Source of the DNA: a virus
Virus record (IMG/VR): IMGVR_UViG_3300028844_002785
Span: 23,129 to 87,128 of that record
Length of the DNA: 64,000 bases
Strand: one strand, 5' to 3'
In this document: positions 24,254 through 60,697 of the stretch, piece after piece
Layout: each line of letters starts with the position of its first letter
Numbering within the stretch: position 1 is the stretch's first letter
Made by a program: the position numbers and the translations under genes
Notes under the pieces: generated by a model
Seen by the model: only the letters and a program-made list of their open reading frames with translations
Database searches by the model: none
Told to the model about the DNA's origin: nothing

Positions 24254-24685
24254 ATGATAACACTTGACGACATTAAATCCCAATGGGCTGAAGACTCAAA
24301 AATTGAACAAGATCTACTAGACGAAGAATCAATTAAAATTCCCCAACTACACAGCAAGTATTTAAATTACTTGTCTGATGTTAGGTTGTTAAAAATAAAA
24401 AAGGACCATGAATATAAATCTCTACTCAGAGATAAGTTTGAGTATTACACAGGTAAATCAGAACCAAGTGTGTACCAAGAAAAACCGTTTGACTTAAAAG
24501 TACTGAAGTCAGACCTAGGATTGTATATGGATTCTGATCCTGAATTACAGCTTCTACAAACTCGCATAAATTATTATGAAGAGATTATGTTTTTTCTTGA
24601 AAAAGTTCTCCAATGTTTAAACAACAGAGGATTTCAAATCAAGAATAGTATTGACTGGCAAAAATTTATGCAAGGTAGTATTTAA
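24254..24685 (+). CDS. uvsY: Recombination mediator UvsY
   Basis: This 143-residue helical protein matches UvsY (T4: 137 residues), which helps UvsX load on gp32-coated single-stranded DNA. Shared features are the N-terminal LDDIKSQWAEDSKIEQDLLD, the LLRDKFEYYTGK motif (T4: LKARLDYYSGR) and the C-terminal CLNNRGFQIKNSIDWQKFM (T4: IKSRGFAIKHIQDMRAFE). The stop overlaps the uvsW start, as in T4-like phages where these genes act together. Confidence 0.85.
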   Translation: MITLDDIKSQWAEDSKIEQDLLDEESIKIPQLHSKYLNYLSDVRLLKIKKDHEYKSLLRDKFEYYTGKSEPSVYQEKPFDLKVLKSDLGLYMDSDPELQLLQTRINYYEEIMFFLEKVLQCLNNRGFQIKNSIDWQKFMQGSI

Positions 24686-26160
24686 TGACTGATGTAGTTA
24701 TTCAAAAGAAAAATGAAGTATATTTAACTGTTGAGTGTGAACCGCATATTAAATATGAACTGTCGGAGTATTTTACATTTGAAGTTCCAAATGCAAAGTT
24801 CATGCCTCAATATAAAAAAAGATTGTGGGATGGTACAATTAAATTGTTCAGTCCAGCTGATGGAAAAATATACTGTGGTTTGTATGACTACCTAGTTGAA
24901 TGGTTAGATTCCAGAGAGTATAGTTACGAAAACAAAGATAATGAATATTATGGTTTACCACAAGAAACCAATGATTTAATATCAGTTAATGGTATAGTAG
25001 ATTTTGTTAAGAGTTTAAATATACCTTTCAAGGTAAGAGACTATCAATACTATGCTATTTTTCAGGCATTAAAATATAATCGTAGGTTATTATTATCTCC
25101 AACTGCATCGGGTAAGTCATTAATGATTTATTCTATTACTAGATTTTTTGCAAATAGAGGAGATAGAATATTAATTGTTGTACCTACTACATCATTAGTT
25201 GAACAGATGTGTGGTGACTTTGATACGTATGGTTGGTCTTCTGAAGATAACTGTCATAAAATTTATGCCGGTAAAGATAAACAAACTAATAAACAAGTAG
25301 TAGTAACAACTTGGCAATCAATATATAAATTACCTAAAAGTTATTTTGAACAATTTGATTGTATTATTGGAGATGAAGCACATTTATTTAAAGCAAAATC
25401 TCTAATCAATATTATGACCAAGTTACATAATTGTAAACATCGTATTGGATTTACTGGAACTCTAGATGGATCAAGTACAAACCAACTTGTATTGGAGGGA
25501 TTGTTTGGACCAGTCAATAAAGTTATTAAGACAAAACAACTAATTGATAAAGGTCATCTATCAGCATTAAAAATTAATATTTTATTATTACAACATCCAG
25601 AATTATTATTTGATTCATATCAAGATGAGATGGATCATATCTGTACTATGGATAAGAGAAATAAATTTATTAAAAAACTTACATTAAATCAAACTGGTAA
25701 TACTCTTATCTTATTTGCATATGTAGAGAAGCATGGTCAAGTACTTTACGATATGATAAATAGCAGTGTATCAGAGAATAGAAAGGTATTCTTTGTCCAT
25801 GGTGGTGTAGATACTGAGGATAGAGAAGAGGTTAGACAAATTACAGAGACCCAAGATGATGCTATAATTATTGCTTCATATGGAACATTCTCTACTGGCA
25901 TTAATATTAAAAAATTACATAACATTGTATTTGCCAGTCCTAGTAAATCAAGAATAAGAAATTTACAATCAATAGGAAGAGCTCTTCGTAAAAGCAATCA
26001 AAAAGAAATAGCAACATTATTTGATATTGCAGACGATTTCACAAAAGGAGATAGAAGAAACTATACATTAAATCATATGGTAGAAAGAGTAAAAACTTAC
26101 TCTCAAGAAAATTTTAATTATGAGATTATTCCAATCAATTTTAGGAGAAAGGAAGAATGA
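24685..26160 (+). CDS. uvsW: DNA helicase UvsW
   Basis: This 491-residue superfamily 2 helicase unwinds branched DNA and R-loops and helps move T4-like phages from origin-dependent to recombination-dependent replication. Walker A SPTASGKS is at 138-145, the DEAH box is in IGDEAHLF, motif III is in GFTGTLDGS, and QSIGRALRKS is motif VI. The N-terminal 110 residues carry the UvsW-specific DNA-binding domain (YKKRLWDGTIKLF). T4 UvsW is somewhat longer. The stop overlaps the next ATG by 4 bp. Confidence 0.93.
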   Translation: MTDVVIQKKNEVYLTVECEPHIKYELSEYFTFEVPNAKFMPQYKKRLWDGTIKLFSPADGKIYCGLYDYLVEWLDSREYSYENKDNEYYGLPQETNDLISVNGIVDFVKSLNIPFKVRDYQYYAIFQALKYNRRLLLSPTASGKSLMIYSITRFFANRGDRILIVVPTTSLVEQMCGDFDTYGWSSEDNCHKIYAGKDKQTNKQVVVTTWQSIYKLPKSYFEQFDCIIGDEAHLFKAKSLINIMTKLHNCKHRIGFTGTLDGSSTNQLVLEGLFGPVNKVIKTKQLIDKGHLSALKINILLLQHPELLFDSYQDEMDHICTMDKRNKFIKKLTLNQTGNTLILFAYVEKHGQVLYDMINSSVSENRKVFFVHGGVDTEDREEVRQITETQDDAIIIASYGTFSTGINIKKLHNIVFASPSKSRIRNLQSIGRALRKSNQKEIATLFDIADDFTKGDRRNYTLNHMVERVKTYSQENFNYEIIPINFRRKEE

Positions 26161-26552
26161 TGATTCAAGAATTTATCGGAATGCTAAAGTTAGTTAGTGG
26201 TGAAGAAATTATTGGTAGAGTATTAGTATGTGAAGAAGAGAATGGATTTGTTATTGAGAATCCATTTAGTGTAGAAGAAACTATTATTGAAACACCAGCT
26301 GGTGAAATGGTAAAGATAGATTTGAGACCATGGGTTAAATTCTCTAGAGAAGAAATTCTATTTGTAGAGAAAGAAAAAACAATAACTATCTATGAAGCAG
26401 ATGATAGAATAGAAAAGATATACAATAGAACATTACGTAAATATTTCTTTCAAGAAGATACAAGTAAATTAGATCTTAATGAAGAGATGGGATTTAAAAA
26501 TAAAGTAAATGATGCAAGAGATAGCTTAGAGAAGATCTTTAAAGATAGCTAA
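26157..26552 (+). CDS. Sm-like small protein, paralogue 1
   Basis: This 131-residue protein has the sequence order LKLVSGEEIIGRVL, then a PF block (NPFSVEE), then RPWVKF, then an acidic IEKIYNRTLRKYF helix. The short beta-rich core SGEEIIGxV followed by a Pro and a Trp resembles Sm/LSm domains. Two further proteins in this window (35933 and 41200) share the pattern. The gene is coupled to uvsW (ATGATGA). An RNA-binding role is inferred only from the fold-like pattern. An antisense promoter points into its 3' end. Confidence 0.6.
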   Translation: MMIQEFIGMLKLVSGEEIIGRVLVCEEENGFVIENPFSVEETIIETPAGEMVKIDLRPWVKFSREEILFVEKEKTITIYEADDRIEKIYNRTLRKYFFQEDTSKLDLNEEMGFKNKVNDARDSLEKIFKDS

Positions 26553-26558
26553 GTTGTT

Positions 26559-26576
26559 CTCTGAACCTTAGCAGAG
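26559..26576 (-). other. Hairpin at the predicted 5' end of an antisense RNA
   Basis: On the minus strand CTCTG, an 8-base loop and CAGAG form a stem directly downstream of the predicted start site of the minus-strand promoter. Any transcript would run antisense to the Sm-like gene ending at 26552. Confidence 0.4.
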
Positions 26577-26585
26577 TTATTATAC
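26562..26585 (-). repeat. 24-bp promoter-proximal element, copy 1 (inverted)
   Basis: The minus strand here matches 60306-60329 on the plus strand at 23 of 24 positions, with 20 identical in a row. Both copies run from just before the -10 box into the initially transcribed region. Confidence 0.8.
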
Positions 26586-26607
26586 AGACATTTTAACCAC
26601 TTGTCAA
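26579..26607 (-). promoter_or_regulatory. Sigma-70 promoter, minus strand (TTGACA-17-TATAAT)
   Basis: Minus-strand -35 TTGACA (26602-26607) and -10 TATAAT (26579-26584) are both perfect, with 17 bp between. It overlaps head to head with the plus-strand promoter of gp55 and points into the Sm-like gene and uvsW. Confidence 0.7.
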
Positions 26608-26629
26608 GTCTTTGATAATGTGGTATACT
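26601..26629 (+). promoter_or_regulatory. Sigma-70 promoter for gp55 operon
   Basis: TTGTCA (26601-26606), 17 bp and TATACT (26624-26629) lie 36 bp before the gp55 ATG. The -35 box shares bases with the opposing minus-strand promoter. Confidence 0.75.
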
Positions 26630-26665: not shown

Positions 26666-27136
26666 ATGAAGAAAAAAGAACATTATGTAAACAATAAAGA
26701 ATTTTTAGAAGCTATTACAGTTTATAGAAACAAAGTCATTAAGGCAAAAGAATCAGGTGAAACAAGACCAAGAGTACCAGAATACATTGGAGAATGTTTT
26801 TTAAAGATTGCAACACACCTATCATACAGACCAAACTTTGTTAACTATATGTTCAAAGATGATATGATTTGTGACGGTATTGAAAACTGTTTACAATACA
26901 TTGATAATTTTGATCCAGAAAAATCTTCTAATCCATTTGCTTATTTTACTCAAATTATTTACTTTGCATTCTTACGTAGAATACAGAGAGAGAAAAAACA
27001 ATTAGATATTAAAACACGAATCCTAGAGAAGTCTGGATTTGATGAAGTGTTTAGCGCAGATAGTTCGGTGTTAGGATATGATTCTTCTACGATGAATAGT
27101 ATTAAAGAGTCCCTTGAAATTAAAGTTAATCGATGA
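26666..27136 (+). CDS. 55: RNA polymerase sigma factor for late genes gp55
   Basis: This 156-residue protein matches T4 gp55 (185 residues), the small sigma factor that lets host RNA polymerase read TATAAATA late promoters. Shared features are YVNNKEFLEAI near the N-terminus (T4: YVNNKELLQAI), the region 2 segment CDGIENCLQYIDNFDPEKSS and NPFAYFTQIIYFAFLRRIQR (T4: NPHAYITQACFNAFVQRIK). It heads an operon with gp47, DUF3110, gp46 and cpeT from a sigma-70 promoter, so late-gene expression is tied to an early transcript. The stop overlaps gp47 by 4 bp. Confidence 0.92.
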   Translation: MKKKEHYVNNKEFLEAITVYRNKVIKAKESGETRPRVPEYIGECFLKIATHLSYRPNFVNYMFKDDMICDGIENCLQYIDNFDPEKSSNPFAYFTQIIYFAFLRRIQREKKQLDIKTRILEKSGFDEVFSADSSVLGYDSSTMNSIKESLEIKVNR

Positions 27137-60283: not shown

Positions 60284-60312
60284 TTGACAAACAAGTCAAT
60301 CTTCAGTAAAAT
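60284..60312 (+). promoter_or_regulatory. Sigma-70 promoter for the nuclease-like gene
   Basis: Perfect TTGACA (60284-60289), 17 bp and TAAAAT (60307-60312) lie 52 bp before the ATG at 60365. Confidence 0.75.
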
Positions 60313-60329
60313 AACTCTGCTAAGGTTCA
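60306..60329 (+). repeat. 24-bp promoter-proximal element, copy 2
   Basis: This segment matches the minus strand of 26562-26585 at 23 of 24 positions. It covers the -10 box and about the first 17 transcribed bases. Confidence 0.8.
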
Positions 60330-60364: not shown

Positions 60365-60697
60365 ATGAAACCTCAGAGTGCGAAAGCTAAAGGTAGAAAC
60401 TTACAGAAATGGGTTAGAGAAAGATTAATTGAATCATTAGATATACATCCAGAAGATATTGAATCTAGATCTATGGGTGCTGGTGGAGAAGATCTTATTA
60501 TGGCTAGAGCTGCTAGACAGAAATTTCCACATAGTATTGAATGTAAGAATGTAGAAAAATTAAATGTATGGGAAGCTTATGATCAAGCTAAAGCTAATGG
60601 TGGTAAGTATGAACCAATTGTAGTCATGAAGAAAAACCACAAGAAACCATTAGTGGTAGTTGATGCAGATTATTTTATAAGTCTTTTTAATAAATAA
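60365..60697 (+). CDS. PD-(D/E)XK nuclease-like protein
   Basis: This 110-residue protein has the minimal nuclease fold pattern: SAKAKGRNLQKWVRERL helix, then D43 in GAGGEDLIM, and E59-C-K61 in HSIECKN. A QAKANGGKYEPIVVMKK segment and the strand LVVVDADYF complete it. This D-x15-E-x-K arrangement is that of Holliday-junction resolvases and restriction-like nucleases of phages. It has its own sigma-70 promoter sharing an element with the gp55 region, so early expression is expected. Confidence 0.7.
   Translation: MKPQSAKAKGRNLQKWVRERLIESLDIHPEDIESRSMGAGGEDLIMARAARQKFPHSIECKNVEKLNVWEAYDQAKANGGKYEPIVVMKKNHKKPLVVVDADYFISLFNK

Follow-up and report, generated by a model that had tools for sequence, protein, structure and literature searches.

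Why should one short sequence stand at two promoters on opposite strands of a phage genome, and why should it run on past the -10 box? The question arose from a first-pass annotation of the window, the whole 64,000-nucleotide stretch of DNA analysed here, which comes from a T4-like cyanophage with gp55, uvsW, uvsY and a RusA-like gene recognised by profile. On re-reading, positions 60306-60329 (+; GTAAAATAACTCTGCTAAGGTTCA) and 26585-26562 (-; GTATAATAACTCTGCTAAGGTTCA) agree at 23/24 bases, the single difference that the annotation had reported, and the 17-bp spacers of the two sigma-70 promoters differ, as it had also said, to the point of being unrelated. In the 87,128-bp contig the exact 20-mer occurs in two places only, 60310-60329 (+) and 26562-26581 (-). 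No third copy of AATAACTCTGCTAAGGTTCA was found at up to three mismatches in the window or the contig, and at the same threshold 100 dinucleotide shuffles gave 0 matches. Neither Rfam models nor a tRNA scan gave a hit in the window. The two loci contain the following features.

60284-60312, +: sigma-70 promoter, TTGACA (60284-60289), 17-bp spacer, TAAAAT (60307-60312); 11/12 hexamer matches
60313-60327, +: palindromic element AACTC-TGCTA-AGGTT, sense copy; from sequence, family and covariation
60319, +: G at the expected start site of the sense copy; from its distance to the -10
60365-60697, +: gene for a RusA-like Holliday junction resolvase, the nearest one downstream of the sense copy; phrog_244, E 2.9e-20
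26579-26607, -: antisense sigma-70 promoter, TTGACA (26607-26602), 17-bp spacer, TATAAT (26584-26579); 12/12, conserved at relatives' gp55
26564-26578, -: palindromic element AACTC-TGCTA-AGGTT, antisense copy, expected start G26572; from sequence and orthologous-site covariation
26601-26629, +: gp55 promoter, TTGTCA, 17 bp, TATACT, its -35 superimposed on the antisense -35; 10/12, divergent pair conserved
26666-27136, +: gp55, late sigma factor; phrog_234, E 8.9e-69
26157-26552, +: T4-GC139, Sm-like domain protein, overlapped by the predicted antisense transcript; PF16243, E 4.3e-7 (above the curated cut-off), PHROG 471
24685-26160, +: uvsW helicase, which the possible antisense transcript would reach after T4-GC139; PF21241 and helicase domains

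By these hexamer counts both element-bearing promoters are of the sigma-70 pattern (TTGACA, 16-18 bp, TATAAT). A T4 middle (MotA) promoter is ruled out at both copies by the consensus -35, and a T4 late promoter, with TATAAATA as its sole element, by the sigma-70 hexamers. The shared identity does span the -10 box, as annotated, but takes in about 11 transcribed bases rather than about 17, because initiation is expected about 7 nt past the -10 and the first six bases, AACTCT, would be untranscribed.

The element recurs across T4-like cyanophages

The repeat is genuine, and as a control site it is widespread among T4-like cyanobacterial viruses. With few exceptions the Kyanoviridae examined have between one and three sigma-70 promoters that bear it, mostly two or three, and at each it is an imperfect palindrome of the type AACTC-TGTCA-GGGTT placed directly after the promoter and centred on the expected start site. 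The motif search of related cyanophages that the first-pass annotation had proposed returned the exact 20-mer in 17 IMG/VR contigs, in every case behind TTGAC and a TANAAT-type box. Further copies thus exist and the element is conserved at related phages' promoters, so that the outcome which would have undone the original observation, neither copies nor conservation, clearly did not arise. A motif-free promoter scan of nine genomes found the element after the -10 at 2-3 promoters per marine Synechococcus phage and missing from the majority of these genomes' remaining sigma-70 promoters. A weight matrix made from the sites of that scan scores them at 28-42 bits against at most about 18 elsewhere in Syn33, S-CAM9, Syn9, DSL-LC02, S-8S53, S-SSM5 and the window contig. 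Both S-PM2 sites score only 14-18 bits because each has an additional central base. By the matrix P-HM1 has no site, and P-SSM2 and DSL-LC03 have a single clear copy each, the antisense one. Relaxed patterns gave many more sites among the matches listed, some with N9 and others with N10 spacing; the gap that separates these two classes was not resolved by a MAFFT alignment. In unrelated phages the 14-mer core by itself matched largely by chance. Literature searches turned up no account of the element.

Several sense copies have their -35 box inside the hairpin of a preceding intrinsic terminator and a TATAAATA-like box of the T4 late type 20-35 bp downstream (S-CAM9 141749, S-PRM1 63381, S-8S53 82000, DSL-LC02 108657 and L007 3244), an arrangement that would pack terminator, early promoter and late promoter together. 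A weaker relative, TATGATAGCTCTGCCAGAGATGATAAAGAAAGC, stands behind TTGCCA and a 17-bp spacer in S-CAM9 (45486) and S-8S53 (2241 and 176714); its presence at both ends of the S-8S53 record suggests that this assembly may hold a terminal repeat.

The arms of the palindrome covary

Downstream of the antisense -10 the sequence varies widely among relatives while an inverted repeat around a fixed TG is kept, as in AACTC-TGTCA-GGGTT, AACAG-TGTCG-CTGTT, AACTT-TGTCG-AAGTT, ACTC-TGTG-GAGT and AGCG-ATGTCG-CGCT. Across 51 distinct orthologous sites, arms taken from the same site form 3.71 Watson-Crick pairs of 5 compared with 3.24 for swapped arms (z 5.6; 0/20,000 permutations), the loci being related and so representing fewer independent events than sequences. 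The effect holds when the AACTC majority is left out (z 6.4) and when one site is taken per left arm (z 4.4), and this covariation is the mark of dyad symmetry under selection that an operator should carry. Some members pair poorly, for example AGGTT-TGTCTCCATT. A G is fixed 7 or 8 nt past the -10, at the expected point of initiation, and the palindrome would accordingly span about -6 to +9; the central TG is asymmetric and is read as the start site.

Copies change together within a genome

Sites within one genome resemble each other more than they resemble those of other genomes. In the 13 genomes or contigs with at least two sites, copies differ by 1.52 edits within a genome and 3.92 between genomes, a contrast reached in 0/10,000 shuffles. 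Several matching copies per genome, as an operator would require, are seen in these edit distances and in individual pairs. The extra base of S-PM2 is present at both its sites, and the two sites of contig G021 share the rare variant AGCAATGTGGCGCTTT. The cleanest case of change in concert is that of the window and its relative G007. In both, one site lies at gp55 and one at RusA; CTGCTAAGG is the variant at each of the window's sites and CTGTCAGGG that at each of G007's.

The change is also confined to the element. At the RusA site, L319 and the window agree at 28/29 promoter bases and 224/240 bases of the downstream flanks compared with 12/16 in the element, and the antisense-site element of L545 and L552 likewise diverges more than its flanks. 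Element-specific change of this kind is what a changing DNA-binding specificity would be expected to produce. Syn33 and S-PM2 both grow on WH7803 and have different variants; phages of one host strain thus differ, which makes a viral factor likelier than a host factor.

Overlapping promoters upstream of gp55

The antisense site was surveyed from gp55 as anchor, with the element not assumed in finding sites, and a promoter directed away from gp55 is clear at 78/80 gp55 loci in IMG/VR. In annotated phages it sits between gp55 and T4-GC139. The gap also holds a sense promoter matching at least 10/12 in 89% of 79 relatives compared with 3% of shuffles, so that the overlapping divergent pair is itself a conserved feature. 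In the window the two -35 boxes are superimposed, that of the gp55 promoter at 26601-26606 and that of the antisense promoter at 26602-26607; the offset between the promoters is -1 in 37 relatives and about 8-15 in most others. Promoters that overlap in this way leave no room for two polymerases together, and an operator here could therefore switch the late sigma factor. The predicted antisense transcript would head into the gene of the Sm-like domain protein (PF16243); a search of the antisense strand gave no intrinsic terminator.

In relatives T4-GC139 is annotated as methylamine utilization, a name that is probably wrong given its Sm-like domain; it is among the least conserved core genes, the relatives' copies being 22-34% identical to that of the window. 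In P-HM1 an antisense promoter stands at the corresponding place upstream of gp55 (116866), there with a different palindrome, ACACT-ATG-AGTGT, that overlaps the -10.

A probable operator for a putative viral regulator

The sequence comparisons favour an operator over a pause, an sRNA target or an RNA hairpin. We put a probability of about 0.58 on the element being an operator at the start site for a putative phage-encoded dimeric regulator, and it probably marks the place where such a viral regulator acts. The first-pass annotation had offered an operator alongside a site in the initial transcript. The former gains from the palindrome at the expected start, the arm covariation and the co-changing copies, whereas a site in the initial transcript alone is unsupported, because the expected start leaves the left arm upstream and leaders from that start fold no better than shuffles.

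In the model that we propose, host RNA polymerase would use consensus sigma-70 promoters during infection, and at two or three of these a phage-encoded dimeric protein would bind the start-site palindrome (about -6 to +9) and, once accumulated, block initiation. Its targets in the window would be the unit behind the RusA-like gene and the antisense promoter that shares its -35 position with the gp55 promoter. Once the antisense promoter is closed, the gp55 promoter would be released and antisense transcripts would no longer run into the Sm-like gene and uvsW. The exact start site, a phage-encoded protein as binder, repression over activation and the effect on gp55 are what we infer here. Arm spacing differs by one base inside the S-CREM1 and ACG-2014a genomes, which is unusual for a rigid dimer site and speaks against an operator. 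Relatedness also inflates the statistics, and matching within genomes could partly reflect recent copying of short segments.

Alternative explanations

Covarying arms could also reflect base pairing, in the nascent RNA or in the non-template strand of an open or scrunched complex. Such a hairpin fits a loop whose length runs from 3 to 6 with pairing kept, the N9 and N10 spacings side by side in S-CREM1 and the many T-G pairs. We nevertheless judge it unlikely, as the left arm would lie outside the RNA, leaders behave as shuffles do on folding, wobble makes up 33% of non-Watson-Crick pairs compared with 24% in swapped arms, which is no clear enrichment, and a hairpin alone leaves unexplained why one genome's copies have the same arm sequence. 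That last property, together with arm covariation, is also not expected if RNA polymerase itself reads the element as a discriminator or initial transcribed sequence adjusted to favour strong initiation, escape or pausing. The direct junction with consensus promoters and the G at the start position would suit this reading. It is made improbable by the element's absence from most other sigma-70 promoters in the same genomes, and by phages that bear different variants where the host polymerase is the same.

Homogenisation needs no trans-acting factor: recombination would copy short segments between promoters, and the element would have no function beyond the promoter. The near identity of one genome's copies, and the conserved flanks beside a changed element in close relatives, are as it predicts. 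Its probability is nonetheless small, since the identity ends at the element and the spacers are unlike, the arms covary, and the gp55 site is conserved across very divergent relatives. T4 origins use promoters, and the element could by analogy belong to a T4-type replication-origin promoter that supplies an R-loop primer, the antisense promoter being near recombination genes (uvsW and uvsY adjoin this copy) and having no obvious coding role. With GC skew unchanged at every site and ordinary gene clusters behind the sense copies, this is the least probable of the readings weighed here.

T4-GC390 as a candidate regulator

A screen for genes held by element-bearing genomes and missing from P-HM1 gave one clear DNA-binding family, T4-GC390, which has an AbrB/MazE fold (PF04014 above cut-off in two members). 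It is present in 13/15 reference genomes, in some as a weak match, and immediately follows a site in Syn9, Syn33 and S-SSM5; in others it is 4-12 kb off or elsewhere. It was not found in contigs G021, G025 and G014. T4-GC390 was dropped as the favoured regulator once S-PRM1 proved to have cleanly lost the gene while keeping three sites, and its role as regulator of the element is now doubtful. Set against S-CAM9 (152986-153135), S-PRM1 (about 74106) is missing a single small gene, GC390, and the deletion falls between a pair of ATGAAA repeats.

The element in host genomes

The connection with host islands came as a surprise. When bacterial and archaeal contigs were scanned, 21 matches came back; two were in Synechococcus, and the others were spread over unrelated groups in the way expected of chance matches. 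The promoter-element at no more than one mismatch is present in 8/400 picocyanobacterial genomes, where about 0.1 would be expected by a uniform-base estimate, and the reversed control gave 0/400. The eight host copies are as follows.

L637, 3020, +: host copy
L475, 3408, +: host copy
L631, 6016, +: host copy
L632, 6088, +: host copy
L633, 6270, +: host copy
L634, 6390, +: host copy
L635, 6511, -: host copy
L636, 6212, +: host copy

As a raw count, each of the eight has a site-specific recombinase (tyrosine integrase or serine resolvase) no further than about 6.5 kb away. AlpA is near two of them, and several have a small zinc-finger ORF and a short downstream ORF near the site. The variant of G080, AACTA-TGCAC-TAGTT, is a perfect palindrome. 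With an integrase or excisionase near the element, as in satellite islands, the host copies look like parts of integrative islands or candidate phage satellites that use the phage control box. It is possible, and we raise it tentatively, that the element is the operator of a so far unrecognised, phage-encoded regulator in lytic T4-like cyanophages, one of ever-changing DNA specificity, as in temperate-phage immunity, and that host-integrated satellites carry the promoter-operator as an infection sensor. This strong promoter would be on in healthy cells and closed by the phage regulator, releasing the island, or opened by it if the sign is opposite.

Relation to known systems

Cyanomyoviruses lack motA and asiA, and how they time transcription without MotA, AsiA or Alt has been described as an open question (PMC2984593). 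The element offers a concrete control box and, in almost all Synechococcus cyanomyoviruses tested, a regulon that is small and defined; the overlapping divergent promoters tie it physically to the late sigma gene. Host islands that bear recombinases and the element point to a control signal common to abundant marine phages and possible satellites.

Like the T4 MotA box, the element is a short conserved box on a subset of sigma-70 promoters. The MotA box stands in place of the -35, whereas the cyanophage box follows a promoter whose -35 and -10 are both consensus. The presence of a phage control site in host-integrated islands as well recalls P2 and P4, where helper and satellite share regulatory sites (Ogr); the cyanophage box is of a different kind and position, and the islands are known here from sequence. 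MazE-type operators such as that of MazE6 are about 18 bp and lie at the -10 region, the E. coli mazEF operator is palindromic, and contact residues vary while the fold is kept (PMC9477884). Cyanophage GC390 shares this fold, although the cyanophage palindrome is downstream of the -10 and S-PRM1 keeps three sites without GC390. Antisense transcription in a cyanomyovirus has a precedent in the CfrI antisense RNA of S-PM2, observed experimentally at the psbA and homing endonuclease locus (PMC2984593, PMC5931967). The locus here is another, and its gp55 antisense promoter is a prediction.

Lambdoid CI and Cro are phage repressors with start-site operators. The cyanophage element differs in occurring in lytic T4-like phages, for which we know of no repressor, and in having arms of only 4-6 bp, a putative regulator and one site that reads antisense to the late-sigma locus. 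In both systems a palindrome covers the promoter or start of a few promoters, variants are phage-specific, and one site falls within an overlapping divergent promoter pair.
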